The notes beneath the pieces were generated by a model. It made no database searches. It was not told the DNA's origin and was given only the letters and a program-made list of their open reading frames with translations. A program made the position numbers and the translations under genes. From Arenicola marina (Eukaryota; Annelida; Polychaeta; Arenicolidae), in contig OZ025252.1 of NCBI GenBank assembly GCA_964019135.1, forward strand, positions 6,340,823 through 6,404,822: a DNA stretch of 64,000 nucleotides, given 5' to 3'. This document shows, piece by piece, positions 4,845 through 60,344 of the stretch. Positions within the stretch are counted from its first letter, which is position 1; every line of letters starts with the position of its first letter.

Positions 4845-4962
4845 CGTCGCTTAGGTGTCACGTGACATAGCCAGCGTCGCTTCAGTGTCACGTGATGTGG
4901 CCCGCGTCGCTTCAGTGTCACGTGATGTGGCCCGCGTCGCTTCCAGTGTCACGTGATGCGGT
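4845..4962. repeat. 30-bp tandem repeat, 4 units, just after the ASB stop
   Basis: Four units of GCGTCGCTTCAGTGTCACGTG plus a short spacer, starting about 10 bases after the stop codon and so probably in the 3' UTR. Each unit contains the palindrome CACGTG (an E-box core). Confidence 0.8.
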
Positions 4963-31360: not shown

Positions 31361-31723
31361 TATAGCAAATGTTAGGTGGGCAGAAGGCTCTCATATTGAC
31401 ACATCGAGAGAAATGGTAGCTTTCTGCTCCGGGGATTAAGAGAAGAAAAGGCGAAAAAAGTGGTCATTTGAGCGCCACATATGTATATACCTCAATATAT
31501 CTAGTTCCCCGCCCCCTTCTTTTATTAAGAACTACCCGGGACCCCGTCCCAGCCCCGTCCCTTCTAGTCCTCTTAGGGCGTGTTTACATAAAACCAACAA
31601 GGAACGAAAGACGAGGTTTGAAAGCAGCTACACAGGTTTTCCAGCCTGCATGGCCAGAGCTGGTTAGCAAAGACCTCTGACGGTGACGTTATGACTGAGA
31701 CGGCACCTCCCCATGGCACAGCT
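31361..31723. other. Unique sequence between two large arrays
   Basis: No supported gene. It separates the 14-bp and 20-bp arrays. Confidence 0.4.
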
Positions 31724-36830: not shown

Positions 36831-37186
36831 CCGTTCTTCGATTTCCTCTTGAATTACCTTTGTCTTCATAACATATTTGGGCATATGTAAAATATGTATC
36901 AAATAGTATTGTCACATTTTGAATTAAGATTAAAATGCATAAATATCAGACGGAAAGTTCACATCTAATATACAAAATAAGGAAATGTCAAACTTGGTCA
37001 ACGAAAACATACACTTAAATCAATTCCACCTGAATACTTCCAAATATTATGCCAAAATGACTTACAATAATACACTGAAATACCCTTTGACGGCCTACAG
37101 CCGTGTGGTACTATAAACCGCTACATAATTAGTACGGCAGTGTTTACAAAGTCCGCCAATAACAATATGACACTGGTGTTGGGCCC
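36831..37186. other. Unique AT-rich sequence between arrays
   Basis: No feature recognised. Confidence 0.4.
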
Positions 37187-38462
37187 CACTCGTTACGCCA
37201 CTCGTTACGCCACTCGTTACGCCACTCGTTACGCCACTCGTTACGCCGCTCGTTACGCCGCTCGTTACGCCGCTCGTTACGCCACTCGTTACGCCACTCG
37301 TTACGCCACTCGTTACGCCACTCGTTACGCCACTCGTTACGCCACTCGTTACGCCACTCGTTACGCCACTCGTTACGCCACTCGTTACGCCGCTCGTTAC
37401 GCCACTCGTTACGCCACTCGTTACGCCACTCGTTACGCCACTCGTTACGCCACTCGTTACGCCGCTCGTTACGCCACTCGTTACGCCACTCGTTACGCCA
37501 CTCGTTACGCCACTCATTACGCCACTCGTTACGCCACTCGTTACGCCACTAGTTACGCCGCTCGTTACGCCGCTCGTTACGCCACTCGTTACGCCACTCG
37601 TTACGCCACTCGTTACGCCACTCGTTACGCCACTCGTTACGCCGCTCGTTACGCCACTCGTTACGCCACTCGTTACGCCACTCGTTACGCCACTCATTAC
37701 GCCACTCGTTACGCCACTCGTTACGCCACTAGTTACGCCGCTCGTTACGCCGCTCGTTACGCCACTCGTTACGCCACTCGTTACGCCACTCGTTACGCCA
37801 CTCGTTACGCCGCTCGTTACGCCACTCGTTACGCCGCTCGTTACGCCGCTCGTTACGCCGCTCGTTACGCCACTCGTTACGCCGCTCGTTACGCCGCTCG
37901 TTACGCCACTCGTTACGCCGCTCGTTACGCCACTCGTTACGCCACTCGTTACGCCACTCGTTACGCCGCTCGTTACGCCACTCGTTACGCCACTCGTTAC
38001 GCCGCTCGTTACGCCACTCGTTACGCCGCTCGTTACGCCACTCGTTACGCCGCTCGTTACGCCACTCGTTACGCCACTCGTTACGCCGCTCGTTACGCCA
38101 CTCGTTACGCCGCTCGTTACGCCACTCGTTACGCCGCTCGTTACGCCGCTCGTTACGCCACTCGTTACGCCGCTCGTTACGCCGCTCGTTACGCCGCTCG
38201 TTACGCCGCTCGTTACGCCACTCGTTACGCCGCTCGTTACGCCGCTCGTTACGCCGCTCGTTACGCCGCTCGTTACGCCGCTCGTTACGCCACTCGTTAC
38301 GCCGCTCGTTACGCCGCTCGTTACGCCGCTCGTTACGCCGCTCGTTACGCCGCTCGTTACGCCGCTCGTTACGCCACTCGTTACGCCGCTCGTTACGCCA
38401 CTCGTTACGCCGCTCGTTACGCCGCTCGTTACGCCGCTCGTTACGCCACTCGTTACGCCACT
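37187..38462. repeat. 12-bp minisatellite, about 106 units
   Basis: Unit ACTCGTTACGCC with one common two-state site (CACTCG or CGCTCG). Length is kept at 12 bp throughout, so both strands stay open and encode tetrapeptide cycles (TRYA-like on plus; TSGV- or NERR-like on minus). A 15-unit (180-bp) block is duplicated, shown by the same rare variants ACTCATTACGCC and ACTAGTTACGCC at 37512/37692 and 37548/37728. Expression as protein is not supported. Confidence 0.97.
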
Positions 38463-39227: not shown

Positions 39228-39702
39228 ATGAAGGTGTACACACTCGGGCACAACACCTCCCCTGACTTCCCGGCGGCACGGTTCCGGTCCACTGAGGTGG
39301 TGTCGCGGCTCCCGACCAAGGGAAGCCCTGGGGAAGCCCCAGGACCGGAGGATGACGTCATCGCCACGGAATCCTCCCGGGACGTCCGGAAAACCGCGAC
39401 GCTCGTGAAAGACCCGGATGTAGTGTCAGATGGAGGATATGATAAACTGGGGAAGGATGGTTTAGGGCGGGAGTCCGACCAGATTAGTATGTCCCCCTCT
39501 AATCTATCCCTGTCCAGTTGTGACGTCACCGACGGTTCTCCCCACAGTCTCAAGGTGGATGGGATCAGCTACAAGGTCAAGGTCAGAGAGGGGTCGTGGT
39601 GGCGAGGCGGGTGCTGCCGTCAGAAACAAGACAAGGACATCCTACGTCACGTCAGCATTCACCTGAAGAGCAGCCAGCTATCCGGCCTGATGGGCAACTC
39701 CG
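39228..39702 (+). CDS. ABCG5: ABCG5-like exon 1
   Basis: From ATG 39228 to donor TCCG|GTAAGG, phase 1. Encodes the N-terminal extension and the start of the ATPase up to the first half of Walker A, which the intron splits after the first base of Gly159. An in-frame Cys-rich stretch ([11 protein letters not shown]) lies before the ATPase. A further 5' exon cannot be excluded. Confidence 0.85.
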
Positions 39703-42700
39703 GTAAGGTAACTCGGGCAATGCACGTCCCCTCAGTCTGATGGGCAACTCCAGTGATGTAATTCGGGCAATAGACGTCAAGTATAATGGCAACTACGGTA
39801 AGGTAACTCGGGTAATGAACGTCATGTTAGTCTGAAGGGGAACTCCGGTAAGGTAATTGGGGCCATGCACGTCATGTCAGTTTTGCTGCAATAAGCAATA
39901 TTATAGACCAGCATAATTACCCTCTCTCACACCAGGGCACGAGAAGACCTCTCTATTACTGTCTTCCCTGCTCCCCCCCCCCCCCCAGGAATCGGGAAGA
40001 CCACTATGTTACTGGCTTCTCTCCCCCCAGGAAGCGGGAAGACCACTATGTTACTGGCTTCTCTCCCCCCAGGAAGCGGGAAGACCACTATGTTACTGGC
40101 TTCTCTCCCCCCAGGAAGCGGGAAGACCACTATGTTACTGGCTTCTCTCCCCCCAGGAAGCGGGAAGACCACTATGTTACTGGCTTCTCTCCCCCCAGGA
40201 AGCGGGAAGACCACTATGTTACTGGCTTCTCTCCCCCCAGGAAGCGGGAAGACCACTATGTTACTGGCTTCTCTCCCCCAGGAAGCGGGAAGACCACTAT
40301 GTTACTGGCTTCTCTCCCCCCAGGAAGCGGGAAGACCACTATGTTACTGGCTTCTCTCCCCCAGGAAGCGGGAAGACCACTATGTTACTGGCTTCTCTCC
40401 CCCCAGGAAGCGGGAAGACCACTATGTTACTGGCTTCTCTCCCCCAGGAAGCGGGAAGACCACTATGTTACTGGCTTCTCTTCCCCCAGGAAGCGGGAAG
40501 ACCTCCCTGCTTGACGTTATCTCCAGCCGCCACAGCGGTGAGGTGGAGGGCGCCGTGTACCTGGACAACGTGCGGCTCACTGAGAGCGTGTTCCGCCGTA
40601 CCGCCAGCTACGTCATCCAGGCGGACCGCCTACTGGCCCACCTCACCGTCAAAGAGAGCCTCCTCTATACCGCCAAGCTCAAGTTCGCCGCTCAACTAAC
40701 AAACGATGCCCTGGCCATCAAGGTAGACAATGCAAAGAGAATGAACCAGTTGATAGACGATGTAAACAGTTGCAACGAAAGTTAAAGTGACGTCAATAGA
40801 GAGTTATTGCACTACGTTTCCGCGCAACGGCCTACGCATCCCGATCCCTCAGGGCCGATACGTTTGCGTTTCGGTTTTTCACTCTCAAACGGCGCACAAA
40901 TGAGTTATTGCAGTCGGTGTTCAGTCGACAACCGTAAAGCGACGGCCGGCGTTCTTCACAAATTACGAAGGTGATTACAATCGAAACAGAATAGAATACA
41001 ACCAGAACAAAGAGTTTAAACAGTTTCGTTTAAAAGTGTTACTATCCGTCTATTTATATTGCTTCGTTCGCTCTCTTACCTTTACACAAACAAAAACACA
41101 AACAATATGTAAGGCCATGTAACAGAGCAGGACTAATTCTCTGATGGATAAGACACATAGTGCAATAACCATTCCCAGAAAAACAACTTCTGAAAATGGT
41201 TATTTCATTCATTTTTCCACTTACATTGATGAACAAACTGAACAGTTTTCCCCCGAGGAATAAGTTCCTCAACAAACAGATTAAAAGTTGAAACGTTATT
41301 CTTATTGAAACAACACTTTTATGCTCAATGTGAAACCATCTAAACAGTTTACATCTTCATTGAACATTTACTTTTATAAAGGTTCTGACCACTAATCAGG
41401 ATCTGGCCTGGCCAATACTATTTCTAAATGTAGTTTTGAACTAGGGTGAGCCTGAATAAATGAAAGTAATAAATCAATGATATTCATGTAACATTCTTTT
41501 TACAAAGTTGCTACCCTTCAAAGACTTCGGGTATTTATTACACACGTGCTCCATGTTGAAGCATAGGCAGCTATAAGTCAATTGCTTTCCAGGTTTATTC
41601 TAAAGACTATGAGTCCCATTTTACTAAACATGGCTATGAGAGGCTTACGTTAAAATGTTTGGAGGCGATGAACCGCAGAACTTTCGGAATATACAAGGAA
41701 AAATCCGTCTTCAAAACACTCGAAAGCTAAAAATATCGTTATATTTCCGAGTTCCCCAAACAACGAGTGACGTCACAGAGCCTCACGCGTCTCCGCTTTA
41801 ATAAAAATGGCGAGAGCATGTGATCGACTTAACCAGTCCGCTGTCAAAATTTGCAGTACATGGAGTAACAGCACACGGATGCGTCATTAAACTACATGGT
41901 AAAGATAAAATAAGACCAGTTGGATGTTTTCGTATCACTTTTGGATCACAAAAAGACCAAGTATCTTCATTTTTGTAAGTTTTCTGTTTGAAGCGTAGCG
42001 CCAACGTTGTCACCGGGGAGAATCCGTGTGACGTCATAATGCCTCGTTTTCGTAGGAAATGCAAAAAAACGTTAATTTCTCAGTCGTATTGTTCCGTCGT
42101 AACAAATATTCGTCATTGTGATGGCGCAAACGAATAAAAAATATGTCGTCTATCCGTCTTGTGAAGCTATATTTCTTAAATATTCTTAATCATATCGCTA
42201 GGCCTTCCGCAATGGACCCACCCCTCGGCGCCTGGCTTTTGCGCAGGTAGTCTGGTTCCCAGTCTCTCTCTTTGCGTAACATACACGTCACACCTACGTC
42301 ACAGATAGTCAGTATACCAGTGTGCGCAGAGATTCTAAACTCGTTCCGAACACGTGCTTCGTTTGTTTGTCCCCAAAATGAGTAAACCGGAAGTCTAAGC
42401 GAACGAGACTTTATAGCCCTATTGCGCAGGTACTCTGGTTCCCTGGCTCTGTCTTTGCGTAACATATACGTCACGCCTACGTCACAGATACTCAGGATAC
42501 CAGTGTGCGCAGAGATTCTAAACTCGTTCCGAACACGTGCTTCGTTTGTTTGTCCCCAAAATAAGTAAACGTAAGTCTTGGCGAACGAGACTTTACAGCT
42601 CTATTGAAATTGCTTCTTTGCGGTGAGGAAAATGTCTATACGAAACTCGAGTTGCTGAAATTATAAACAACCCATCATCGTCCATTGTCTCTCTTTCTAT

Positions 42701-45700
42701 AGTACAGTCAGTCTTAGTCTCAGACATAAACACACATGTATGTTTCAAACCACGCCGGTGGTCGAGTTATACTGGTCTGTGCGGCATTGTGCACAGGGTG
42801 AACTGGCCACTGCGCTGGCCACTGCCACTGCAGGCGACCGATGAATGTTCCACTTTCATTCGACAAATTATTTTGCTTTGCCGCGTCTAAAGACATTCAC
42901 AGCTATATATAAGCACTTGTAAAGTATCCTCTCCCGATAACTGCAAAAACTGAGACATGCCTTCGCATAAAACTAAAAGATATGCAGGAAATTCCCTTGG
43001 GCTGTTATACGTACGGGCAAAACGATAAAATAGCGATTTATACGTTGTCCCGCAAACGGATCCCGCAAACGTATCTATGTAGGTCAGGAAACACCCCGAG
43101 TTCTGATGACGTAATGCTCATCAGGTTACGTTAACGGAATACGTTTAACGAAAACCTATTGCAATAACTCTCTTATCCTAAAAAATATTCGAGATTTGTG
43201 AACATTAGCTTTTCGCCACCTAGATTGCGCGCAAGATTTGTTCAAAGAGCTCATGTTTTCTTTACGGTTTTGGCCCTTTAGGTGGACAATCTACTGCAAG
43301 AAATGGGACTCAAGCACGTGGCCAACTCTCACATAGGGGGCACTATAGACCGAGGGATATCGGGAGGCGAGCGACGCCGAGTGAGCATCGCTGTACAACT
43401 CCTACAGGACCCATGTAAGTTTAGGGAGTGAGCATCGCTGTACAACTCCTACAGGACCCATGTAAGTTTAGGGAGTGAGCATCGCTGTACAACTCGTACA
43501 GGACCCATGTAAGTCTAGGGAGTGAGCATCGCTGTACAACTCCTACAGGACCCATGTAAGTCAGGGAGTGAGCATCGCTGTGCAACTCCCACAGGACCCA
43601 TGTAAGTCTAGGGAGTGAGCGTCGCTGTACAACTCCTACAGGACCCATGTAAGTCTAGGGAGTGGGCATCGCTGTACAACTCCTACAGGACCCATGTAAG
43701 TCTAGAGAGTGAGCATCGCTGTACAACTCCTACAGGACCCATGTAAGTCTGGGGTGTGAGCATCGCTGTACAACTCCTACAGGACCCATGTAAGTCTAGG
43801 GAGTGAGCATCGCTGTACAACTCCTGCAGGACCCGCGTAAGTCTAGGGAGTGAGCATCGCTGTACAACTCCTACAGGACCCATGTAAGTCAGGGAGTGAG
43901 CATCGCTGTACAACTCCTACAGGACCCATGTAAGTCTGGGGAGTGAGCATCGCTGTACAACTCCTACAGGACCCATGTAAGTCTAGAGAGTGAGCATCGC
44001 TGTACAACTCCTACAGGACCCATGTAAGTCTAGGGAGTGAGCATCGCTGTACAACTCCTACAGGACCCATGTAAGTCAGGGAGTGAGCATCGCTGTACAA
44101 CTCCTACAGGACCCATGTAAGTCTGGGGAGTGAGCATCGCTGTACAACTCCTACAGAACCCATGTAAGTCTAGGGAGTGAGCATCGCTGTACAACTCCTA
44201 CAGGACCCATGTAAGTCTAGGGAGTGAGCATCGCTGTACAACTCCTACAGGACCCATGTAAGTCAGGGAGTGAGCATCGCTGTACAACTCCTACAGGACC
44301 CATGTAAGTCTAGGGAGTGAGCATCGCTGTACAACTCCTACAGGACCCATGTAATCTAGGGAGTGAGCATCGCTGTACAACTCCTACAGGACCCATGTAA
44401 GTCTAGGGGAGTTAGCATCGCTGTACAACTCCTACAGGACCCATGTAAGTCTAGGGAGTGAGCATCGCTGTACAACTCCTACAGGACCATGTAAGTCTAG
44501 GGAGTGAGCATCGCTGTACAACTTCTACAGGACCCTTGTATATCAGGGAGTGACCGTCGCTGTACAACTCCTACAGGACCCATGTAAGTCTAGGGAGTGA
44601 GCATCGCTGTACAACTCCTACAGGACCCATGTAAGTCTAGGAAGTGAGCATCGCTGTACAACTCCTACAGGACCCATGTAAGTCTAGGGTGTGAGCATCT
44701 CTGTACAACTCCTACACGACCCATGTAAGTCTAGGGAGTGGGCATCGCTGTACAACTCCTACAGGACCCATGTAAGTTTAGGGAGTGAACATCGCTGTAC
44801 AACTCCTACAGGACCCATGTAAGTCTAGGGAGTGAGCATCGCTGTACAACTCCTACAGGACCCATGTAAGTCTAGGGAGTGGGCATCGCTGTACAACTCC
44901 TACAGGACCCATGTAAGTCCAGGGAGTAAGCATCGCTGTACAACTCCTACAGGACCCATGTAAGTCTAGGAAGTGAGCGTCGCTGTACAACTCCTACAGG
45001 ACCCGCGTAAGTCTAGGGAGTGGGCATCGCTGTACAACTCCTACAGGACCCATGTAAGTCTAGGGATTGAGCATCGCTGTACAACTCCTTCAGGACCCAT
45101 GTAAGTCAAGGGAGTGAGCATCGCTGTACAACTCCTACAGGACCCATGTAAGTCTAGGGAGTGAGCATCGCTGTACAACTCCTACAGGACCCATGTAAGT
45201 CAGGGAGTGAGCATCGCTGTACAACTCCTACAGGACCCATGTAAATCTAGGGAGTGAGCATCGCTGTACAACTCCTACAGGACCCATGTAAGTCTAGGGA
45301 GTGAGCGTCGCTGTACAACTCCTACAGGACCCATGTAAGTCTAAGGAGTGAGCATCACTGTACAACTCCTACAGGACCCATGTAAGTCGGGGAGTGAGCA
45401 TCGCTGTACAACTCCTACAGGACCCATGTAAGTCTAGGGAGTGAGCATCGCTGTACAACTCCTACAGGACCCATGTAAGTCTAGGGAGTGAGCATCGCTG
45501 TACAACTCCTACAGGACCCATGTAAGTCAGGGAGTGAGCATCGCTGTAGAACTCCTACAGGACCCATGTAAGTCTGGGGAGTGAGCATCGCTGTACAACT
45601 CCTACAGGACCCATGTAAGTTTAGGGAGTGGGCATCGCTGTACAACTCCTACAGGACCCATGTAAGTCTAGGGAGTGAGCGTCGCTGTACAACTCCTACA

Positions 45701-48700
45701 GGACCCATGTAAGTCAGGGAGTGAGCATCGCTTTTCAACTCCTACAGGACCCATGTAAGTCTAGGGAGTGAGCATCGCTGTACAACTCCTACAGGACCCA
45801 TGTAAGTTTAGGGAGTGAGCATCGCTGTACAACTTCTACAGGACCCATGTAAGTCTAGGGAGTGAGCATCGCTGTACAACTCCTACAGGACCCATGTAAG
45901 TCTAGGGAGTGAGCATCGCTGTACAACTCCTACAGGACCCATGTAAGGCTAGGGAGTGAGCATCGCTGTACAACTCCTACAGGACCCATGTAAGTCTAGG
46001 GAGTGAGCATCGCTGTACAACTCCTACAGGACCCATGTAAGTCAGGGAGTGACCGTCGCTGTACAACTCCTACAGGACCCATGTAAGTCTAGGAAGTGAG
46101 CGTCGCTGTACAACTCCTACAGGACCCATGTAAGTCTAGGAAGTGGGCATCGCTGTACAACTCCTACAGGACCCATGTAAGTCTAGGGATTGAGCATCGC
46201 TGTACAACTCCTTCAGGACCCATGTAAGTCAAGGGAGTGAGCATCGCTGTACAACTCCTACAGGACCCATGTAAGTCTAGGGAGTGAGCATCGCTGTACA
46301 ACTCCTACAGGACCCATGTAAGTCAGGGAGTGAGCATCGCTGTACAACTCCTACAGGACCCATGTAAATCTAGGGAGTGAGCATCGCTGTACAACTCCTA
46401 CAGGACCCATGTAAGTCTAGGGAGTGAGCGTCGCTGTACAACTCCTACAGGACCCATGTAAGTCTAAGGAGTGAGCATCACTGTACAACTCCTACAGGAC
46501 CCATGTAAGTCGGGGAGTGAGCATCGCTGTACAACTCCTACAGGACCCATGTAAGTCTAGGGAGTGAGCATCGCTGTACAACTCCTACAGGACCCATGTA
46601 AGTCTAGGGAGTGAGCATCGCTGTACAACTCCTACAGGACCCATGTAAGTCAGGGAGTGAGCATCGCTGTAGAACTCCTACAGGACCCATGTAAGTCTGG
46701 GGAGTGAGCATCGCTGTACAACTCCTACAGGACCCATGTAAGTTTAGGGAGTGGGCATCGCTGTACAACTCCTACAGGACCCATGTAAGTCTAGGGAGTG
46801 AGCGTCGCTGTACAACTCCTACAGGACCCATGTAAGTCAGGGAGTGAGCATCGCTTTTCAACTCCTACAGGACCCATGTAAGTCTAGGGAGTGAGCATCG
46901 CTGTACAACTCCTACAGGACCCATGTAAGTTTAGGGAGTGAGCATCGCTGTACAACTTCTACAGGACCCATGTAAGTCTAGGGAGTGAGCATCGCTGTAC
47001 AACTCCTACAGGACCCATGTAAGTCTAGGGAGTGAGCATCGCTGTACAACTCCTACAGGACCCATGTAAGGCTAGGGAGTGAGCATCGCTGTACAACTCC
47101 TACAGGACCCATGTAAGTCTAGGGAGTGAGCATCGCTGTACAACTCCTACAGGACCCATGTAAGTCAGGGAGTGACCGTCGCTGTACAACTCCTACAGGA
47201 CCCATGTAAGTCTAGGGAGTGAGCATCGCTGTACAACTCCTACAGGACCCATGTAAGTCTAGGAAGTGAGCATCGCTGTACAACTCCTACAGGACCCATG
47301 TAAGTCTAGGGTGTGAGCATCTCTGTACAACTCCTACACGACCCATGTAAGTCTAGGGAGTGGGCATCGCTGTACAACTCCTACAGGACCCATGTAAGTT
47401 TAGGGAGTGAGCATCGCTGTACAACTCGTACAGGACCCATGTAAGTCTAGGGAGTGAGCATCGCTGTACAACTCCTACAGGACCCATGTAAGTCTAGGGA
47501 GTGAGCATCGCTGTACAACTCCTACAGGACCCATGTAAGTCTAGGGAGTGGGCATCGCTGTACAACTTCTACAGGACCCATGTAAGTCTAGGGAGTAAGC
47601 ATCGCTGTACAACTCCTACAGGACCCATGTAAGTCTAGGAAGTGAGCGTCGCTGTACAACTCCTACAGGACCCGCGTAAGTCTAGGGAGTGGGCATCGCT
47701 GCACAACTCCTACAGGACCCATGTAAGTCTAGGGATTGAGCGTCGCTGTACAACTCCTTCAGGACCCATGTAAGTCAAGGGAGTGAGCATCGCTGTACAA
47801 CTCCTACAGGACCCATGTAAGTCTAGGGAGTGAGCATCGCTGTACAACTCCTACATGACCCATGTAAGTCTAGGGAGTGAGCATCGCTGTACAACTCCTA
47901 CAGGACCCATGTAAGTTTAGGGAGTGAGCATCGCTGTACAACTCCTACAGGACCCATGTAAGTTTAGGGAGTGAGCATCGCTGTACAACTCCTACAGGAC
48001 CCATGTAAGTCTAGGGAGTGAGCATCGCTGTACAACTCCTACAGGACCCATGTAAGTCTAGGGAGTGAGCATCGCTGTACAACTCCTACAGGACCCGCGT
48101 AGGTCTAGGGAGTGGGCATCGCTGTACAACTCCTACAGGACCCATGTAAGTCTAGGGAGTGAGCATCGCTGTACAACTCCTACAGGACCCATGTAAGTCT
48201 AGGGAGTAAGCATCGCTGTACAACTCCTACAGGACCCATGTAAGTTTAGGGAGTGAGCATCGCTGTACAACTCCTACAGGACCCATGTAAGTCTAGGGAG
48301 TGAGCGTCGCTGTGCAACTCCTACAGGACCCATGTAAGTCAGGGTGTAAACTGTGTGTACTTGAGCTCAGAAGTGACATCATGTTTTGGCTGCAGACTTG
48401 TTGCTGCTGGACGAGCCGACCACCGGACTCGACAGCTTCACGGCCCACTACCTCGTGGACACGCTGGCCACCCTGGCGCGACGCCGGAACAAGATCATCC
48501 TGCTCTCCATACACCAGCCTCGCTCTGACATCGGCCACCTGTTTGACAACGTGGGCCTGCTGTCCGAGGGTCGTATGGTCTACTTCGGCCCACGGGACCA
48601 GCTCGTACCCTACTTCTCCAGACTGGGGTACCAGTGTCCCGTCTACGCCAACCCTCTGGACTTCTACGGTGAGCTGCCGCGCTTTGGGGGTGTCGCCTTG

Positions 48701-51700
48701 TCTGGCCCCAGCCCTTCAGTCTTCATATGACAACCATGTACACACTGCCACATGGGGGAGGGTCTCTACTATAAAAACATGGTTGGGGGGGCGGGAGGGG
48801 TTTTGTCGCTGGACGCTTATGAAGTTTCTTATGAAAACATTACCCTCTATAGCGAATATTTTTCGTAAACCACATTGATTTCCCCTTTAGAGCTAAAATA
48901 TTCATTAAGATACCCCATAGAACTGATATTTATATATGAAAGTCAACATAACACCTTACCCAGCCAAATTTGTCTTACTAGTGACTTCCAAATAGATAAA
49001 TCTAATAAATAAATCGAATAAGATTTAATAATAAGATTTATTAATCGCCATAGCGATGATATAACATACATGATCAACTTATTATTAGTATGGCAGCTAA
49101 TCCCTCTACTGGTATCTTTTTCCTGCATGAGTGCATGAGTGTCTGGCCCGTTTAATCTCTGTCGTCTAATTTCTGGCGTTCAATCTCTGGCGATGTTGCT
49201 GTTGTTGCAGTGGACCTGTCCAGCATTGACCGGCGCACCACCGCGGTGGAGGCCCAGTCCAGGCACAGGGTCGACACACTCTGCCAGAGTTACGTCGACT
49301 CCGACGTCTACCTGTTAATCGCCAAGGAGGCAGCAATAACCGGAAGTCAGGTCTCCAGCGACACTCGTAGCAAGGCGGAAACACATGACGCGAACCCTAG
49401 CGGGTATAGCGGGCTGCGGTTCTTTACTCTGGTCGGAATATTGCTGAGGTATAAGGACGATCAAGGCACCTGCTTTAGTTTAACGTCCATGATGGGACTC
49501 AGACAATAAATATTATAGATGTATAAGTAACGTGATAGAGTTTTCTAATCATTGACTGATGTCGTTACTTATATTTCTGACATCTTATCTCTGACGTGTT
49601 ATCTGATGTGTTATCTCTGACATCAAATCTCGACGTCTAATTTCTGATGCCTAATCTGTGAGTCTAATCTCTGACGTCTAATCTCTGACGTCTAATCTCT
49701 GATGTCTAATCTCTGACGCCTAATCTCTGATGTCTAATCTGTGAGTCTAATCTCTGACGTCTAATCTCTGATGTCTAATCTCTGACCTCTAATCTCTGAT
49801 GTCTAATCTGTGAGTCTAATCTCTGATGTCTAATCTCTGACGTCTAATCTCTGACGTCTAATCTCTGACGTCTACTCTCTGATGTCTAATCTCTGACGTC
49901 TAATATCTGACATCTAATCTCTGACGTCTAATCTCTGATGTCTAATCTGTGAGGCTAATCTCTGACGTCTGATCTCTGGCGTCTAATCTGTGAGTTTAAT
50001 CTCTGATGTCTAATCTCTGACGTCTAATCTCTGATGTATAATCTATGACGTAGTATATGTGACGTATTTTCTTTGCCGTCTAATCTATGACGTGTTAGCT
50101 CTGACGTCTAATCTGTGACGTGTTAGCTCTGACGTCTAATCTATGACGTCTTATCTCGGACGTGCTATATCTGATGTGTTATATTTGACGTATAATCTGA
50201 AGTCTTATCTCTGACTGGGACAACTTATGTCTGATTCGACGTCATATAAGACTGTTGTCTTTCTTGTGATATACGTGACCAGGCATTTATAGACTATAGC
50301 ACTGACCTTCGGCTCCTTAGAACCTTAACCCAGTAAACACCATATTTGCATGATGATCTGTATTTTATGCAATCTTGCACAGCTACGACAGTTCAGTACG
50401 TGCGATATGACGCCGATCCTGAATCCTGATTCCCCATCCTCCCTTCCAGCCGGATGTACCTGAACCTGTGGCGGGACCGCTCCGGATTCATGTACCGGAT
50501 CATCCCCGTCATCTACATATCCGGATTTATCTGGATCTTCTGCTGGCAGTTGACACCGGACTTCAGGACCGGCATTCAGGATCGGACTGGCGTCTTCTAC
50601 CAGAGCACGTCCACCGCCGTAGTGACTGGGACCCTGACTGCCTCGGCCCTCTGTAAGACTGGTTCTCTGGTTGTCCACAGCTATGGTGTCCGGGGCGGGG
50701 GGGGTGCGGAGGGGCGGGGGGGTAGGGGGGTGCTAGGACCCCATGCCCAGACCGCCGCTGTGGCAAAATAGCCATCTGCAGGAACTACGAATCACAGTAA
50801 CGAGCCGTAACGGGCAATTAAATACATAACTTATTATCACATTGAAAAAGCGATGCCTGAGAGCGATTTCTGTCCTTCGTTCACATAATACCCGTGAGAT
50901 ATAGGCACATAATGAAGTATGTCTCCGGCATTGTTTCGTCGATATCCGCTGCGCATTTTTGTCCGCATTTATTCCCTTCTTCCTTCTTCGAATAATTCAT
51001 TCCTTTCCCCTCCAATTAATACATTATTTACCTTTCCCTCCAATTAATACATTCCTTACATTCCCCTCCAATTAATACATTCCTTACCTTCCCCTCCAAT
51101 TAATACTGTCCTCACCTTCCCCTCCAATTAATACATTCCTTATCTTCCCCTCCAATTATTACATTCCTTACCCTCCTCTCAAATTAAAACATTACTTACC
51201 TTCCCTTCCAATTAATACATTCCTTACCTTCCCCTCCAATTAATACATTTCTTACCTTCCCCTCCAATTAATACATTCCTTACATTCCCCTCCAATTGAT
51301 ACATTCCTTACCTTTCCCTCCAATAAATACATTCCTTACCTTCCCCTCCAATTAATACATTCCTTACCTTCTCCTTCAATGAATACATTTCTTACCGTCC
51401 CCTCCAATTACTACATTTCTTACCTTCCCCTCCAACTAATACATTTCTTACCTTCCCCTCCATTTAATTCATGTCTTACCTTCCCCTCCAATCAATACAT
51501 TACTTACATTCCCCTCCAATTGATACATTCCTTACCCTTCCCTCCAATAAATACATTCCTTACCTTCCCCTCCAATTAATGCATGCCTTACCTTCTCCTC
51601 CAATGAATACATTCCTTACCGTCCCCTCCAATTACTACATTTCTTACTTTCCCCTCCAATTAATACATTTTTCACCTTCCCGTCCAATTAATGCATTCCT

Positions 51701-54700
51701 TATTTTTCCCTCCCATTAATACATTCCTTACCTTTCCCTCCAAATATTACATTCCTTATCTTCCCCTCCAACAAATACATTATTTACCTTCCCCTCCAAA
51801 GATTACATTCCTTACTTTTCCCTCCAAGGACTTCATGCTTCATTTATTCAATCCTTCCCCTGAGAGTAAAACATTCATTTTCATTTTCCCCTCAAATGAA
51901 GACATTTCCCCACTGTTTCGCCAGTAGACATGGCTCGCCCTTGGCTGGCCCATTCCCTAGGTTCTCACGGCCGTGTAACGTGCGTGTCCGTGCGTGGTGT
52001 GATTGCAGTCCCCGTGCTTCGAGACCTCTACTACAGGGAGGCCCGGGAAGGGCTCTACGGCTGCAGTCACCTCCTCGTGTCCTACTATGTCCACGTCCTG
52101 CCCTTCCACGCCCTGTCCAGCATCCTGGGCAGCACGTGGCTGTACTGGTACGTAACGCCTGACCACCCCCCCCCCCCCCCACCCCCTTCCACGCCCTGTC
52201 CAGCATCCTGGGCTGCACGTGGCTGTACTGGTACGTAACGCCTGACCACCCCCCCCCCCACCCCCTTCCACGCCCTGTCCAGCATCCTGGGCTGCACGTG
52301 GCTGTACTGGTAAGTAACGCCTGACCACCACCACCACCTCCACCCCCTTCCACGACCTGTCCAGCATCCTGGGCAGCACGTGGCTGTACTGGTAAGTAAC
52401 GCCTGACCACCACCCCCCCCCCCACCCCCTTCCACGCCCTGTCCAGCATCCTGGGCTGCACGTGGCTGTACTGGTAAGTAACGCCTGACCACCACCACCA
52501 CCTCCACCCCCTTCCACGACCTGTCCAGCATCCTGGGCTGCACGTGGCTGTACTGGTAAGTAACGCCTGACCACCACCCCCCCCCCCCCCCCCAACCCCC
52601 TTCCACGCCCTGTCCAGCATCCTGGGCTGCACGTGGCTGTACTGGTAAGTAACGCCTGACCACCACCCCCACCACCACCCCCATCACCCCCTTCCACGCC
52701 CTGTCCAGCATCCTGGGCTGCACGTGGCTGTACTGGTAAGTAACGCCTGACCACCACCCCCACCACCACCCCCATCACCCCCTTCCACGCCCTGTCCAGC
52801 ATCCTGGGCTGCACGTGGCTGTACTGGTACGTAACGCCTGACCACCACCACCACCACCACCCCCACCACCCCCTTCCACGCCCTGTCCAGCATTTTGGGC
52901 TCTACGTGGCTGTACTGGTACGTAACGCCTGACCATTCCCCCACCACCACCCCCATCACCCCCTTCCACGCCCTGTCCAGCATCCTGGGTTGAACGTGGC
53001 TGTACTGGTACGTAACGCCTGACCATTCCCCCACCACCACCCCCATCACCCCCTTCCACGCCCTGTCCAGCATCCTGGGTTGAACGTGGCTGTACTGGTA
53101 CGTAACGCCTGACCACCCCCCCACCATCACTCCCACCACCACCACCACCCCCACCCCCTTCCACGCCCTGTCCAGCATCCTGGGCTCTACGTGGCTGTAC
53201 TGGTACGTAACGCCTGACCACTACCACCACCACCACCACCACCCCCTTCCACGCCCTGTCCAGCATCCTGGGCTCCACGTGGCTGTACTGGTATGTAACA
53301 CGGGGGGGGGGGGGGACCTGGTGCACGTACTCGCCCCCCCTTTTTGGCTGGAATTTCGTGTCCCCCCACTCTTTCCTCGATCCGTCATGGAGATTCTTCT
53401 GAAATACTTGGGGATAATCCGTGAATACCGATGTATAATAATTATCCTTTTTTCATCAATATTTTACACCACGATGTCTTGTCACAATAAATGAATATCA
53501 ATTCTAAAAAGATATGTATATAGTTTACACTATTTACAGTGGGCTACTATGTAGATTTTTAATTTATTTAATTATTAAGTGGATATGTTCGCAACAAATT
53601 TTAGGCGGCGGTCGATCCGGCTGCGGAATTCAACCCAGACGTCATGTCTTCCTTTCATTGCAGGGCCATAGGCCTGTACCCAGGCGTCATGTCTTCCTTT
53701 CATTGCAGGGCCATAGGCCTGTACCCAGGCGTCATGTCTTCCTTTCATTGCAGGGCCATAGGCCTGTACCCAGGCGTCATGTCTTCCTTTCATTGCAGGG
53801 CCATAGGCCTGTACCCAGGCGTCATGTCTTCCTTTCATTGCAGGGCCATAGGCCTGTACCCAGACGTCATGTCTTCCTTTCATTGCAGGGCCATAGGCCT
53901 GTACCCAGGCGTCATGTCTTCCTTTCATTGCAGGGCCATAGGCCTGTACCCAGGCGTCATGTCTTCCTTTCATTGCAGGGCCATAGGCCTGTACCCAGAC
54001 GTCATGTCTTCCTTTCATTGCAGGGCCATAGGCCTGTACCCAGACGTCATGTCTTCCTTTCATTGCAGGGCCATAGGCCTGTACCCAGACGTCATGTCTT
54101 CCTTTCATTGCAGGGCCATAGGCCTGTACCCAGACGTCATGTCTTCCTTTCATTGCAGGGCCATAGGCCTGTACCCAGGCGTCATGTCTTCCTTTCATTG
54201 CAGGGCCATAGGCCTGTACCCAGACGTCATGTCTTCCTTTCATTGCAGGGCCATAGGCCTGTACCCAGACGTCATGTCTTCCTTTCATTGCAGGGCCATA
54301 GGCCTGTACCCAGGCGTCATGTCTTCCTTTCATTGCAGGGCCATAGGCCTGTACCCAGACGTCATGTCTTCCTTTCATTGCAGGGCCATAGGCCTGTACC
54401 CAGGCGTCATGTCTTCCTTTCATTGCAGGGCCATAGGCCTGTACCCAGACGTCATGTCTTCCTTTCATTGCAGGGCCATAGGCCTGTACCCAGACGTCAT
54501 GTCTTCCTTTCATTGCAGGGCCATAGGCCTGTACCCAGACGTCATGTCTTCCTTTCATTGCAGGGCCATAGGCCTGTACCCAGACGTCATGTCTTCCTTT
54601 CATTGCAGGGCCATAGGCCTGTACCCAGGCGTCATGTCTTCCTTTCATTGCAGGGCCATAGGCCTGTAACCAGACGTCATGTCTTCCTTTCATTGCAGGG

Positions 54701-57700
54701 CCATAGGCCTGTACCCAGGCGTCATGTCTTCCTTTCATTGCAGGGCCATAGGCCTGTACCCAGACGTCATGTCTTCCTTTCATTGCAGGGCCATAGGCCT
54801 GTACCCAGGCGTCATGTCTTCCTTTCATTGCAGGGCCATAGGCCTGTACCCAGACCTCCACCGCTTCGCCGTTTTCTTTGCCGTCACGTTCATCCTGCAG
54901 CACCTGGGGGAGGTGCAAACCTTGACCTGCGTGTCCCTGGCACACAACCCGGCCCTGGCCCAAAGTGTGGGCACCCTACTGGCAGCCCTCTCCTGCCTCT
55001 ACGCCTCGGGGCTCTTCAGGTAACACCAGGGGAGAGGGGGGAGAGGGGAGGGGGGGGGGGACCTGCTGGCAGCCCTCTCCTGCCTCTACGCCTCGGGGCT
55101 CTTCAGGTAACGCCAGGGGGGAGGGGGGGAGGGGGGGAGGGGGGACCTGCTGGCCGCCCTCTCCTGCCTCTACGCCTCAGGGCTCTTCAGGTAACGCCAG
55201 GGGGAGGGGTGAGGGGGGGGGGGGACCTGCTGGCCGCCCTCTCCTGCCTCTACGCCTCGGGGCTCTTCAGGTAACGCCAGGGGGGAGGGGGGAGAGGGGA
55301 GGGGGGGGGGGACCTGCTGGCCGCCCCTCTCCTGCCTCTACTCCTAGGGGCTCTTCAGGTAACACCAGGGAGGAGGGGGGGGAGAGGGGAGGAGGGAGGG
55401 GGGACCTGCTGGCCTCCCTCTCCTGCCTCTACGCCTCGGGGCTCTTCAGGTAACGCCAGGGGGGAGGTGGGACGGGGGGAGGGGGGAGGGGGGACCTGCT
55501 GGCCTCCTTCTCCTGCCTCTACGCCTCGGGGCTCTTCAGGTAACGCCAGGGGGGAGGGGGGAGGGGGGACCTGCTGGCCTCCCTCTCCTGCCTCTACGCC
55601 GCGGGGCTCTTCAGGTAACACCAGGAGGGAGGGGGGGAGGGGGGAGGGGGGACCTTCTGGCAGCCCTCTCCTGCCTCTACGCCTCGAGGCTCTTCAGGTA
55701 ACGGCCAGGGGGGAGGGGGGAGGGGGGAGGGGGGACCTGCTGACCTCCCTCTCCCTGCCTCTACGCCTCGGGGCCCTTCAGTAACGCCAGGGGGGGAGGG
55801 GGGAGGGGGGGACCTGCTGGCCGCCCTCTCCTGCCTCTACGCCTCGGGGCTCTTCAGGTAACACCAGGGGGGAGGGGGGAGGGGGGAGGGGGGACCTGCT
55901 GGCCTCCTTCTCCTGCCTCTACGCCTCGGGGCTCTTCAGGTAACGCCAGGGGGGAGGGGGGAGGGGGGACCTGCTGGCCGGCCCCTCTCCTGCCTCTACG
56001 CCTCGGGGCTCTTCAGGTAACACCAGGGGGGAGGAGGAGGGAGGAGGGGGGACCTGCTGGCCTCCCTCTCCTGCCTCTACGCCTCGGGGCCCTTCAGGTA
56101 ACGCCAGGGGGGACGGGGGAGGGGGGACCTGCTGACCGCCCTCTCCTGCCTCTACGCCTCGGGGCTCTTCAGGTAACACCAGAGAGGAGGAGGAGGGGGG
56201 AGGGGGGACCTGCTGACCGCCCTCTCCTGCCTCTACGCCTCGCCTCGCCCGTCAACCCTATGACGTAGTCGCATGGCTCTTTCAATTTCTCAGACAATGG
56301 CATAGCTACTGACAATGCATTCCTAAACTGATCGCCATTATAAACTTACTGACGAAAGACCCGAATATCTTAAATACATGTACTTCTTTAGCTCTAAAAG
56401 TGGTAAAATCCTCAGTTATATTTACGTCATCTACTTTTCAGAGCGTTCGAAAACCTGATTCCCCCTCTGCAGTGGTTTTCCTACATCAACTTCTTCCGCT
56501 ACGCCATGGAAATCATCGTAGCGAATGAGTACCATGACCTCAACATGACCTGTCCTTACGTGGGTGAGAACAATGACCAATACCATGACCTCATCATGAC
56601 CTGTCCTTACGTGGGTGAGAACAATGACCAATACCATGACCTCAACATGACCTGTCCTTACGTGGGTGAGAACAATGACCAATACCATGACCTCAACATG
56701 GCCTGTCCTTACGTGGGTGAGAACAATGACCAATACCATGACCTCAACATGGCCTGTCCTTACGTGGGTGAGAACAATGACCAATACCATGACCTCATCA
56801 TGACCTGTCCTTACGTGGGTGAGAACAATGACCAATACCATGACCTCAACATGACCTGTCCTTACGTGGGTGAGAACAATGACCAATACCATGACCTCAA
56901 CATGGCCTGTCCTTACGTGGGTGAGAACAATGACCAATACCATGACCTCAACATGGCCTGTTCCACACCCCATAAGGTCATCGTACCCATACAGACCCCA
57001 CAACACATACAGACCCCACAACACATACAGACCTCACAACACATACAGACCCCACAACACATACAGACCCCACAACACATACAGACCTCACACCACACAT
57101 AGACCCCACACAACACACCACACATAGACCCCACACAACACACCACATATAGACCCCACACAACACACCACACATAGACCCCACACAACACACCACATAT
57201 AGACCCCACACAACACACCACACATAGACCCCACACAACACACCACACATAGACCCCACACAACACACCACACATAGACCCCACACAACACACCACACAT
57301 AGACCCCACACAACACACCACACATAGACCCCACACAACACACCACACATAGACCCCACACAACACACCACACATAGACCCCACACAACACACCACACAT
57401 AGACCCCACACAACACACCACACATAGACCCCACACAACACACCACACATAGACCCCACACAACACACCACACATAGACCCCACACAACACACCACATAT
57501 AGACCCCACACAACACACCACATATAGACCCCACACAACACACCACACATAGACCCCACACAACACACCACATAGAGACCCCACACAACACACCACACAT
57601 AGACCCCACACAACACACCACATATAGACCCCACACAACACACCACACATAGACCCCACACAACACACCACATATAGACCCCACACAACACACCGCATAT

Positions 57701-59117
57701 AGACCCCACACAACACACCACACATAGACCCCACACAACATACCACACATAGACCCCACACAACCCACCACACATAGACCCCACACAACACACCACATAT
57801 AGACCCCACGCAACACACCACATATAGACCCCACACAACACACCACACATAGACCCCACACAACACACCACACATAGACCCCACACCCTACAGACACCAC
57901 ACAGACCTCACACCCCATACCAACACCACAGAGACCCCACACCACATACAGACCCCACACCACATACAGACCCCACACCCCATACAGACCCCACACCCCA
58001 TAGTGACCCCACACCCCATACATACCCCACACCCCATAGTGACCCCACACCCCATACAAACCCCACATCTCATGCAAACCTCACACAGACCCCACAGCGA
58101 CTCCACACCTCATATAGACCCACACAGGTCCCACACCCACATAGACCCCACACCGACCCCACACCTCATATAGACCCACCCACACAGACCCACACCGACC
58201 CCACACCTCATATAGACCCACACAGATCCCACACCCACACAGACCCCACACCGACCCCACACCTCATATAGACCCACACAGATCCCACACCCACACAGAC
58301 CCACACCGACCCCACACCTCATATAGACCCACACAGATCCCACATCCCACACAGACCCCACACCGACCCCACACCTCATATAGACCCACACAAATCCCAC
58401 ACCCACACAGACCCCACACCGACCCCACACCTCATATAGACCCACATAGATCCCACACCCACACAGACCCCACAACTCATATAGACCCACACAGATCCCA
58501 CACCCACACAGACCCCACACCGACCCCACACCTCATATAGACCCACACAAATCCCACACCCACACAGACCCCACACCGACCCCACACCTCATATAGACCC
58601 ACACAGATCACACAACCACACAGACCCCACACCGACTCGACACCTCATATAAACCCACACAGATCCCACACTCACACAGACCCCACACCGACCCCACACC
58701 TCATATAGACCCACACAGATCCCACACCCACACAGACCCCACACCGACCCCACACCTCATATAGACACACACAGATCCCACACCGACCCCACACCTCATA
58801 TAGACCCACACAGATCCCACACCCACACAGACCCCACACCCACACAGACCCCACACCGACCCCACACCCACACAGACCCCACACAGACCCCACACAGCAA
58901 TGCACACGCCTCTATCAGACCTCCTCCTGACACCCATTCTCGCTTCCCCACAGATCCGAACTGCACCATCTCCGGAGACCTCTATCTGGACGAGTTCTTC
59001 CCTGGAGCTGTCGACAACATCGTCCGGAACTTCGGGATCCTGGCGGCCTTCGTCGTCGGCTTCTGGATCATCACCATCGTTATCTTTCTGATCCGGGGAA
59101 TCCGGCAGTTGTACTAA
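39228..59117 (+). CDS. ABCG5: ABCG5-like half ABC transporter, ten exons
   Basis: Ten exons (475, 233, 133, 273, 238, 203, 139, 186, 122 and 164 bases) join in phase to 721 residues plus stop. ABCG half-transporters have an N-terminal ATPase and a C-terminal six-helix domain, and work as dimers moving sterols or lipids across membranes. Walker A is residues 156-163 (GNSGSGKT), signature SGGE 263-266, Walker B LLLLDEP with Asp286 and Glu287, and the H-loop His320. The first helix is about 468-484. ABCG5-type stretches include [31 protein letters not shown] and an [10 protein letters not shown] loop whose Asn661 is a glycosylation site. Residues 1-145 are an extension longer than in human ABCG5 (651 residues), without a domain I know. 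ABCG8, its vertebrate head-to-head partner, is not adjacent here. Introns are filled with minisatellites, six of which overlap splice sites. Confidence 0.93.
39703..39988. other. ABCG5-like intron 1, unique part
   Basis: About three partial echoes of the exon-1 end (CTGATGGGCAACTCC, GTAAGGTAACTCGGG) occur at about 39740-39860. This looks like an early or decayed duplication of the donor region. Confidence 0.6.
39989..40503 (+). repeat. Splice-acceptor minisatellite of exon 2, 42-bp unit, about 12 units
   Basis: Each unit holds CTTCTCTCCCCCCAG (pyrimidine tract plus acceptor AG) and then GAAGCGGGAAGACC, the first bases of exon 2 that encode GSGKT of Walker A. Most units are 42 bp, a multiple of three and open in the transporter frame; some are 41 bp. 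The last unit runs directly into exon 2 at 40490. Confidence 0.95.
40490..40722 (+). CDS. ABCG5: ABCG5-like exon 2
   Basis: Acceptor TTCCCCCAG at 40489, donor ATCAAG|GTAGAC; enters in phase 1 and leaves in phase 0. Completes Walker A and encodes [16 protein letters not shown] and the Q-loop region [18 protein letters not shown]. Confidence 0.93.
40789..43178. mobile_element. Possible large inverted-repeat DNA element in intron 2
   Basis: The left end AGAGAGTTATTGCA (about 40789) is matched by inverted TGCAATAACTCTCT (about 43165-43178), with TA on both sides as a possible target duplication. Inside the ends similarity is loose. The block contains the element at 41541-42605 as a nested insertion. 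No transposase was recognised. Confidence 0.4.
41541..42605 (-). mobile_element. Inverted-repeat DNA element, family ATAGGGCTATA, copy 2
   Basis: Reverse-oriented relative of 14474-15438 sharing the whole interior. The end near 41541 is cut inside the terminal repeat. The other end is duplicated: a left-end segment with GTTTGTTTGTCCCCAAAA occurs at about 42360 and again at about 42546, each followed by an AGCCCTATT- or AGCTCTATT-type terminus. An 88-codon frame (42064-41798) corresponds to the 86-codon frame of copy 1. Confidence 0.75.
43282..43414 (+). CDS. ABCG5: ABCG5-like exon 3
   Basis: Acceptor GGCCCTTTAG at 43281, donor ACCCAT|GTAAGT. Encodes the helical part and the ABC signature ISGGERRR followed by [11 protein letters not shown]. 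Its last 34 bases are repeated about 105 times downstream together with the donor. Which donor is used is unknown; the first gives a perfect phase join to exon 4. Confidence 0.92.
43381..48340 (+). repeat. Splice-donor minisatellite of exon 3, 47-bp unit, about 105 units
   Basis: Each unit is the exon-3 end (GTGAGCATCGCTGTACAACT then CCTACAGGACCCAT) plus a donor GTAAGT and CTAGGGA. Nearly every unit keeps the consensus donor. A 1,123-bp (24-unit) block is duplicated in tandem, shown by the rare variants GGGATTGAGC at 45063/46186 and CGCTTTTCAAC at about 45731/46854. Read-through from one unit to the next meets a stop (TGA within GGGAGTGAGC) in the transporter frame. Confidence 0.96.
48396..48668 (+). 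CDS. ABCG5: ABCG5-like exon 4
   Basis: Acceptor TTTTGGCTGCAG at 48395, donor CTACG|GTGAGC, phase 1 at both ends. Encodes Walker [13 protein letters not shown], the D-loop and H-loop SIHQPRSD, and the NPLDFY motif typical of the ABCG family. Confidence 0.95.
48669..49210. other. ABCG5-like intron 4
   Basis: A 542-bp intron with no minisatellite, unlike most neighbours. Ends with TTGCTGTTGTTGCAG. Confidence 0.8.
49211..49448 (+). CDS. ABCG5: ABCG5-like exon 5
   Basis: Joins exon 4 as [13 protein letters not shown], matching the DFYxDLTSVD region of ABCG5. Encodes the linker between the ATPase and membrane domain and ends at LLTR-like [10 protein letters not shown] before donor CTGAG|GTATAA (phase 2). 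Confidence 0.9.
49560..50220. repeat. 14-bp minisatellite in intron 5, about 40 units
   Basis: Units of TAATCTCTGACGTC and TAATCTCTGATGTC with a recurring short variant (TAATCTGTGAGTC). Does not overlap a splice site. Confidence 0.92.
50450..50652 (+). CDS. ABCG5: ABCG5-like exon 6
   Basis: Acceptor TCCCTTCCAG at 50449, donor CTCT|GTAAGA (phase 1). Encodes the first transmembrane helix ([16 protein letters not shown]), the [15 protein letters not shown] loop typical of ABCG proteins and the start of the second helix. Confidence 0.93.
50985..51900. repeat. 29-30 bp minisatellite in intron 6, about 31 units
   Basis: Units of ATTCCTTACCTTCCCCTCCA plus ATTAATAC. The right third is more diverged. 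Does not reach the acceptor of exon 7. Confidence 0.93.
52009..52147 (+). CDS. ABCG5: ABCG5-like exon 7
   Basis: Acceptor GTGATTGCAG at 52008; the split codon becomes Phe, giving [19 protein letters not shown], the conserved ABCG segment after helix 2. Ends STWLYW at donor TACTG|GTACGT (phase 2). The last 47 or so bases recur about 13 times downstream with a donor. Confidence 0.92.
52098..53300 (+). repeat. Splice-donor minisatellite of exon 7, about 80-105 bp unit, 14 copies with the exon
   Basis: Each unit carries CTTCCACGCCCTGTCCAGCA and TCCTGGGCTGCACGTGGCTG of exon 7, then TACTG|GTACGT or TACTG|GTAAGT, AACGCCTGACC and a CCACCA- or C-rich run of variable length. Early units have poly-C, later ones CCA triplets. 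The last donor is GTATGT. The true exon has GGGCAGCACG where most copies have GGGCTGCACG. Confidence 0.95.
53301..53639. other. Intron 7 spacer between donor array and acceptor array
   Basis: About 340 bp of mainly AT-rich sequence. A stretch at 53388-53465 is repeated in inverse orientation at about 59775-59855, after the gene. Confidence 0.6.
53640..54858 (+). repeat. Splice-acceptor minisatellite of exon 8, 45-bp unit, 27 acceptors
   Basis: Each unit holds TCTTCCTTTCATTGCAG (pyrimidine tract and AG) followed by GGCCATAGGCCTGTACCCAG, the first bases of exon 8, then GCGTC or ACGTC. From the first acceptor (53663) to the last (54833) the spacing is exactly 26 x 45 bp, so there are no indels. 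The unit is open in the transporter frame ([15 protein letters not shown] cycle); one unit near 54667 has a stop. Confidence 0.97.
54834..55019 (+). CDS. ABCG5: ABCG5-like exon 8
   Basis: Uses the last of 27 acceptors (54833) and donor CTTCAG|GTAACA. Encodes [20 protein letters not shown] and later [15 protein letters not shown], membrane helices aligned with YWTLGLHPEVARF and the following part of ABCG5. Phase 2 in and out. Use of the last acceptor is inferred from family alignment, because earlier ones would insert 15-residue units. Confidence 0.9.
54975..56240 (+). repeat. Splice-donor minisatellite of exon 8, about 75-95 bp unit, about 15 copies
   Basis: Units carry CTCTCCTGCCTCTACGCCTC and GGGGCTCTTCAG of exon 8, then donor GTAACACC or GTAACGCC and a G-rich run (GGGGGGAGGGGGGAGG) before GACCTGCTGG. 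Read-through past the first donor meets TAA at once (AGG TAA), so downstream donors would not keep the frame. The last unit lacks the donor. Runs of four G-tracts per unit could form quadruplexes. Confidence 0.95.
56442..56563 (+). CDS. ABCG5: ABCG5-like exon 9
   Basis: Acceptor CTACTTTTCAG at 56441, donor TACGTGG|GTGAGA (phase 1). Encodes [31 protein letters not shown] and the loop DLNMTCPYV, matching the [28 protein letters not shown] region of ABCG5 in position. Confidence 0.93.
56531..56960 (+). repeat. Splice-donor minisatellite of exon 9, about 60-bp-apart blocks of 60 or fewer bases, 8-9 units
   Basis: Each unit is the exon-9 end (ACCATGACCTCAACATGACC then TGTCCTTACGTGG), donor GTGAGAACA and ATGACCAAT, in total a multiple of three bases (51 by my count). 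It is open in the transporter frame, so downstream donors would add units of the kind [17 protein letters not shown] to the extracellular loop. Some units read ATCATG or ATGGCC, removing the Asn-X-Thr site. Confidence 0.92.
56970..57098. repeat. 18-bp tandem repeat, about 6 units
   Basis: Units of ACACATACAGACCCCACA with CCTCACA variants, directly after the exon-9 donor array. Confidence 0.85.
57099..57890. repeat. 25-bp minisatellite in intron 9, about 31 units
   Basis: Unit CACACAACACACC plus ACACATAGACCC, with ATATAG and a few single variants. Minus-strand Cys/Val/Gly-rich frames of up to 329 codons are repeat artefacts. Confidence 0.95.
57891..58900. repeat. About 58-62 bp minisatellite in intron 9, about 14 units
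   Basis: Units combine ACACCTCATATAGACCCACA, CAGATCCCACACCCACACAG and ACCCCACACCGACCCC, preceded by shorter CCCCACACCCCATA units. Ends about 50 bp before the exon-10 acceptor. Confidence 0.93.
58954..59117 (+). CDS. ABCG5: ABCG5-like exon 10 (last)
   Basis: Acceptor CGCTTCCCCACAG at 58953; the split codon becomes Asp. Encodes [17 protein letters not shown] (second Asn-X-Thr site, Asn670), then the final helix [19 protein letters not shown] and the short tail RGIRQLY before TAA. Confidence 0.93.
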
Positions 59118-60344
59118 TTCTGGCCGTCCGCGGGCCGCACAGAGACTATCAAATTGGGTGATTGTGCAGTTTCTAGATGACCTTATCCCTATTATCGCTC
59201 AAGCTTATATGATAGGGATATAATATTTCTTGTGTGGGCGATATTAGGCAGGTCAGATACTGCAGAATCACCTTAAATTGAAAGCCGGGTCCTGATGTAC
59301 CGTGTGGCAATATAATCTGGAATTAACGGGTGCTCGGGCTCTGCTTGAGATGTTCAGACTGGTTCCCTGTCTCTACCGATATCCCAAAAACCCACTCTGC
59401 CAGCAGAGGGAATTTCGAGACCGCCAAAAGGCACGAGAGAATGAAAGCGGCTTTGTATAAGAGACATTCGGAGATATCGGACCTGGCTATAAGAGTACAT
59501 GCTTCCAGAGTCTGCCATTAACGGTCTGATACATGAGGCAGGCATAATATTATCAGGGAGGGATACCAGCTAGGGGTCACACTATCGTGGTTATAGGAGA
59601 GCTACGCCACCAGTGTCAGATCGGAGCCGAGTTCCGCATCACGGACGACAGCCGCGAACAATTCTGGTCGCTCTGAGCTATGAAACGACACTAGTCACAT
59701 CGAATTATTTTTATTCGTTGCGGGGATATCCACAAAATAATATCCTTGCTTGGGAAATAGCAGCACAATCTCAAAAAATTTAAAAGATGAATAAATAAAG
59801 GATAATTACTAAGCATCGATATTTACGGATTATCCCCACTTATTGGAGAAGAATCGTCGATCAGAGTTTAATATTACCATGCGGGGCTGCTCTTGATCGC
59901 GGCGAACCATATCCCACTTCCGGTTTAAAATTGCACGCGTCCTTGACCAATCAAACACGGTGTTTGATATCAAAACAACACCTGAGATTGTTATAATTGT
60001 ACAAACATTCTCTTATGTATATGGGTCACGTGCATTCCGGGTCAAGGGAATTATATAATTTATTTATTACAATTCAATCATATCTTCCAATTGTCGACAT
60101 CCAGAAATAAAATGATTCCTTGAAATAACGTGTTTGCCCTTTTCACAAGTTATATGACTGCCTGGGATGAAGTATGAAGCAATATTGAGGTTGTTTTAGG
60201 ACTCTAATGGCGTATCACTCGAGGTTTTAGGTCACTCGAACGCTCTCTTCGCGGATGTGACTTGGCAGATTACGTTATGATTGGTTTGCTCCAGTAGATG
60301 TGAGGGGGTGATAAAGGTAAGGATGAGGATGTGACGCCCTATCA
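59118..60344. other. Probable 3' UTR and downstream flank of the ABCG5-like gene
   Basis: AATAAA occurs at about 59790-59798 (GATGAATAAATAAAGG) and near 60105, both possible polyadenylation signals. A stretch near 59775-59855 is the inverted copy of intron-7 sequence at 53388-53465. No gene is supported. Confidence 0.45.

Follow-up and report, generated by a model that had tools for sequence, protein, structure and literature searches.

The window, a stretch of 64,000 nucleotides from Arenicola marina (contig OZ025252.1), contains a complete ABCG5-like gene on the + strand (39228-59117). The gene has 10 exons (39228-39702, 40490-40722, 43282-43414, 48396-48668, 49211-49448, 50450-50652, 52009-52147, 54834-55019, 56442-56563, and 58954-59117), and all of its introns are GT-AG. 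The reading frame is uninterrupted over 2166 coding bases, corresponding to 721 aa. The closest solved structure to the gene product is ABCG5 (7jr7_A, E = 1.3e-122), with ABCG8 behind it at 9.4e-73. Tandem arrays make up 13,632 of the 19,890 bases (68.5%) of this animal sterol-transporter gene; they were counted as 13 arrays after overlapping TRF rows with a score of 50 or more had been merged by hand and every variable or compound array had been assigned a single period. The exons are 59% GC, compared to 42% for intron sequence outside the arrays. Elsewhere in the window, Pfam matched three of the 10 open frames submitted (ankyrin/SOCS box, LCAT, and reverse transcriptase), whereas no Rfam match at the gathering score and no tRNA were found in the window.

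For every one of the 18 splice junctions of the ABCG5-like gene, a query of 50 surrounding bases was searched against the window, and arrays were also located with TRF. By TRF and the junction-copy search, seven of the 18 junctions (five donors and two acceptors) are multiplied inside tandem arrays; the remaining 11 are single-copy in the window with the 50-base queries. Along the + strand, the first of these arrays surrounds the donor of exon 1 (39687-39881; spacing 45-50 bp, four diverged copies, 16 exonic bases) and is older-looking. The acceptor of exon 2 lies in an array at 39981-40503 (spacing 41-42 bp, 13 junction copies, 14 exonic bases), and the donor of exon 3 in the largest one, at 43379-48344 (spacing 46-48 bp, 106 copies, 36 exonic bases). 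Further downstream, arrays multiply the donor of exon 7 (52101-53299; spacing 79-105 bp, 14 copies, 47 exonic bases), the acceptor of exon 8 (53633-54855; spacing 45 bp, 27 copies, 22 exonic bases), the donor of exon 8 (54975-56242; spacing 75-91 bp, 15 copies, with 15 of 16 matches spanning the junction, 45 exonic bases), and the donor of exon 9 (56530-56961; spacing 51 bp, eight junction copies and one partial copy, 34 exonic bases). The exonic share of each array is thus 14 to 47 bases, the rest being intronic, and introns 1 and 7 each carry junction arrays at both ends. The acceptors of exons 2 and 8 in the gene model are the last copies of their arrays, and the full frame is obtained by joining first donor copies with last acceptor copies.

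In a reversed-window control, none of the 18 junction queries had a match. Comparison of the units of the seven junction arrays with one another produced no cross matches at E 0.01. A sensitive search for older, degenerate copies at the 11 single-copy junctions returned only short additional matches, 12 to 17 bases long, with a best E of 0.01; the best of these, between the exon-5 acceptor query and the donor-7 array, look like chance and were rejected as old copies. The original prediction, made from the letters of the sequence, had named six junctions of this gene as embedded in arrays. These six arrays are present where it placed them, with unit sizes close to the spacings measured here (41-42, 46-48, 79-105, 45, 75-91, and 51 bp), but its total has to be raised to seven by the donor of exon 1. 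Its description of the arrays as mutually unrelated agrees with the unit comparison, and the seven junctions with unrelated units support repeated, independent tandem amplification at the exon borders of this gene.

Other arrays in the gene do not touch a junction. TRF detected, on the + strand, a 183-bp unit present twice in intron 2 (42239-42606), weak 13-bp and 14-bp repeats in intron 4 (49017-49045, score 51, and 49149-49192, score 53), a 14-bp array in intron 5 (49576-50215), a 28-bp array in intron 6 (50991-51827), and compound arrays of CACACC-like units in intron 9, which were merged as one (56988-58895). No TRF array was confined to the interior of an exon of the ABCG5-like gene.

The order of the units within the 47-bp array at donor 3 bears on how this array may have grown. 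The 105 units cut from it represent 43 distinct types, and a run of 22 successive types is repeated at a lag of 24 units; the longest run reached in 200 shuffles of the unit order was 6. This recurrence is a multi-unit duplication, the pattern expected from unequal exchange. At their intronic ends, six of the seven arrays have a unit that is further from the consensus than the interior units (truncation was counted as divergence); the array at donor 1 is the exception, without a diverged intronic end. At the exon end, agreement of the unit with the consensus is 0.94 to 1.0 in all seven arrays. Growth, copy numbers, and end divergence were all read from one sequence, representing a single haplotype.

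Structures of this type have been described in lancelets. According to the excerpts of the literature cited here, lancelet "mirages" are minisatellite-like tandem duplications of exon/intron boundaries found in Adh3, globin (BflGb6 and BflGb9), troponin C, and PGBD5 genes (PMC3087553, PMC3902484). The units are 10-72 bp long in Adh3 and 150-160 bp in the globins, and mirage length differs between haplotypes in a globin gene and is somatically unstable at Adh3 (PMC3087553). The clusters undergo concerted evolution inside, from which the ends are excluded, and the authors take Adh3 data and RT-PCR of the globins to suggest that regular splicing is undisturbed by the mirages (PMC3087553, PMC3902484). 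In PGBD5 the repeats lie over splice sites, and Adh and troponin C are named as further cases (PMC3902484).

Several features in these descriptions are present in the ABCG5 arrays: the unit spans an exon/intron boundary (7 of 18 junctions), an array may sit at the 5' or at the 3' edge of an exon (five donors, two acceptors), unit length varies by locus (spacings of 41 to 105 bp), and many copies carry AG or GT (all 187 scorable ones). Like the mirage-bearing lancelet genes in these accounts, the ABCG5-like gene is otherwise intact. An Adh paper by Canestro and colleagues from 2002 is cited in later mirage work. Classified by their anatomy in one sequence, the ABCG5 arrays are the same kind of structure as the lancelet mirages. 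The statement in the original prediction that no system of this kind had been described therefore does not stand, given the excerpts in question (PMC3087553, PMC3902484). The intact frame is consistent with regular splicing, as described for mirages. What differs from the lancelet mirages, as far as the excerpts describe them, is scale: a single gene carries seven arrays, with as many as 106 copies, in a copy-number comparison that leaves Adh3 aside.

Two further phenomena are related ideas but are distinct from the ABCG5 arrays. In human segmental-duplication genes, minisatellites with units averaging 30 bp can occur at exon-intron boundaries and alter gene structure; in the part of that study cited here, they are linked to paralogs of recent origin and are able to give rise to novel introns, whereas the ABCG5 arrays are in one gene (PMC2812944). 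In intron gain by tandem genomic duplication, as summarized in excerpts of a review, a new intron arises through duplication of an exonic AGGT (PMC3443670). Duplicated sequence bearing splice signals is common to that process and to the ABCG5 arrays; unlike in the intron gain described there, the ABCG5 junctions were amplified into the adjoining intron. Published mirages were noted one gene at a time in lancelets, as far as the cited excerpts go, and none of the literature matches listed is by title a genome-wide mirage survey. Seven unrelated arrays in one gene show the extent of exon-edge amplification that is compatible with an intact frame. The ABCG5-like gene also offers a test case for how splicing selects one of as many as 106 near-identical copies, and for whether such arrays feed intron gain.

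We consider it quite probable that the arrays are mirage-type minisatellites that straddle the junctions, expanded into the introns, and are carried neutrally, with the outermost copy being spliced. Each array would have been founded by an independent, short tandem duplication of a segment spanning an exon edge, and would have expanded into the adjoining intron, probably via slippage or unequal exchange. The spliceosome would join the outermost copies, that is, the first donor and the last acceptor, so that the inner copies are removed with the intron. Purging would remove arrays that invade the interior of an exon, and the GC-rich DNA at exon edges may found arrays more readily; we propose that together these two effects lead to an over-representation of arrays straddling junctions. 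The neutrality, the choice made by the spliceosome, the purging, and the mechanism of duplication are what we infer.

Whether the arrays overlap junctions more often than expected by chance hinges on the counting unit; an excess is absent by coverage and present by founding unit. Seven junctions lie in arrays, compared to 12.3 of 18 expected when array bases are shuffled within the gene, and a circular shift gave P(>=7) = 0.99. This measure was rejected, as 68.5% of the gene is already array; the shuffle misleads because arrays grow after founding and have come to fill the introns. When each array was counted as one unit, and wholly exonic units were forbidden, seven of the 13 arrays touched a junction versus 1.9 expected, with a P of about 0.0006; this value, and those that follow, are optimistic because the gene was picked post hoc for looking odd. 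The other five variants of the founding-unit count gave P values of 0.0002 or less (0 of 20,000 draws in one of them). With GC matching, 3.2 of 13 arrays were expected to touch a junction versus the seven observed (P 0.006-0.007). Position shuffling, the control put forward in the original prediction, thus yields within this gene no enrichment by bases, but an excess by founding units. The lesson for overlap tests is to count founding units rather than bases.

The excess that remains after GC matching is about twofold over expectation, and GC content and purging may leave a part of it unexplained. A mutational process specific to junctions, in which arrays are founded at exon borders by, for example, transcription-associated breaks or slippage at splice sites, would account for this excess, which persists across all six variants and under GC matching, and for unrelated units at both donors and acceptors. 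We regard such a process as unlikely. The excess comes from a single gene chosen for its oddness, and the expectation rises from 1.9 to 3.2 on GC matching. Moreover, the 11 single-copy junctions within the gene are joined by the four splice junctions probed outside it (three in an LCAT-like gene, one in an ASB-like gene), which are also single-copy in the window. The start and stop of the ABCG5-like gene and the stop of the ASB-like gene were likewise single-copy in the window; a query at the LCAT-like stop, centered about a base off the stop, had one weak extra match of 22 bases.

Under the preferred reading of neutral, mirage-type arrays, the inner copies would be removed with the introns. 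We placed the copies one at a time into the gene model and counted the copies that keep the reading frame, the reference copy included. For the donors, the frame is kept by 1 of 4 copies at donor 1, 1 of 106 at donor 3, 1 of 14 at donor 7, 1 of 15 at donor 8, and 8 of 8 at donor 9; for the acceptors, by 9 of 13 copies at acceptor 2 and 4 of 27 at acceptor 8. At donors 1, 3, 7, and 8, the first copy alone preserves the frame, and therefore use of a spare site there would destroy it. At acceptor 2, acceptor 8, and donor 9, further copies are frame-preserving, and the frame thus does not oblige splicing to keep to the outermost copy; at donor 9 and acceptor 2, other copies could be used in frame, judging from the gene model. 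The 51-bp units at exon 9 translate into 17 residues and variants thereof, with NMT in three of the eight units. The 42-bp unit at exon 2 (39981-40503), read in frame, gives a P-loop-like stretch of 14 residues; the first unit differs from most of the others, which were read by eye.

It is improbable, in our estimate, that exon edges in this lineage are hotspots for the founding of arrays beyond the effects of GC and purging, and that some arrays, namely the 51-bp array of exon 9 and the 42-bp array of exon 2, act as in-frame cassettes. Were the cassette reading true, copy number would alter the transporter, each step at exon 9 adding 17 residues. The site of the exon-9 cassette is presumably an extracellular loop of ABCG5.

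The original prediction had also raised selection for spare splice sites; in another form of this idea, selection exploits such sites for variation of the protein. All 187 copies that cover the splice dinucleotide (of 189 matches in all) have an intact GT or AG, and the frame-keeping copies at the exon-9 donor and the exon-2 acceptor would fit such selection. However, when one random adjacent column pair was drawn per array as a control, about 5% of draws left all seven arrays clean, a share that was 6% once CpG columns had been removed; at about 0.05, the conservation of the dinucleotide is at most suggestive. One donor-8 copy has lost the G beside the junction and retains GT only via a shifted reading. 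Conservation is about the same in the exonic part of the units as in the intronic part, in local alignments that clip mismatches near unit ends, so that change there is undercounted (as seen in the exon-8 acceptor array). The largest array, with 47-bp units, keeps the frame with the first of its 106 copies alone, and four of the seven arrays break the frame beyond the first copy. These results do not support selection for spare sites, and we hold it to be very unlikely.

An assembly artefact, in which the assembler produced part of the arrays or of their lengths, is the most improbable explanation: the exact 22-unit run in the 47-bp array could be a misassembly, and a supplement legend describes one lancelet mirage as seemingly aberrantly assembled in the draft genome (PMC3087553), but the 47-bp array holds 43 distinct types among 105 units, the seven unrelated arrays lie within an otherwise intact gene, and the excerpt on a lancelet gene reports such repeats confirmed by new sequence data (PMC3902484).

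Tandem arrays are also present outside the ABCG5-like gene. Upstream of it, TRF detected very long arrays with units of 14, 20, and 12 bp (24197-31362, 31966-36824, and 37186-38462, respectively), and a 32-bp array (60342-64000) continues to the end of the window. A 30-bp array of 4.4 units (4825-4958, + strand) starts about 7 bases ahead of the stop codon (4832-4834) of the ASB-like gene, which encodes ankyrin repeats and a SOCS box; by TRF, the end of this coding region is thus at the edge of an array. The 50-base query centered on this stop had no second match, so the copies on the stop side of the array have either diverged or are too short to be scored.

The LCAT-like gene (11834-13235, - strand; Pfam LCAT), two exons of which were placed by eye, contains the three single-copy junctions probed there. 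Near it, at 14472-15380 (- strand), is a copy of a dispersed element that also occurs in intron 2 of the ABCG5-like gene (41540-42428, + strand); the two are 91% identical over 912 aligned bases. An open frame of 844 aa (15915-18449, - strand) with a reverse transcriptase domain (RVT_1, Pfam) is perhaps a non-LTR retrotransposon.
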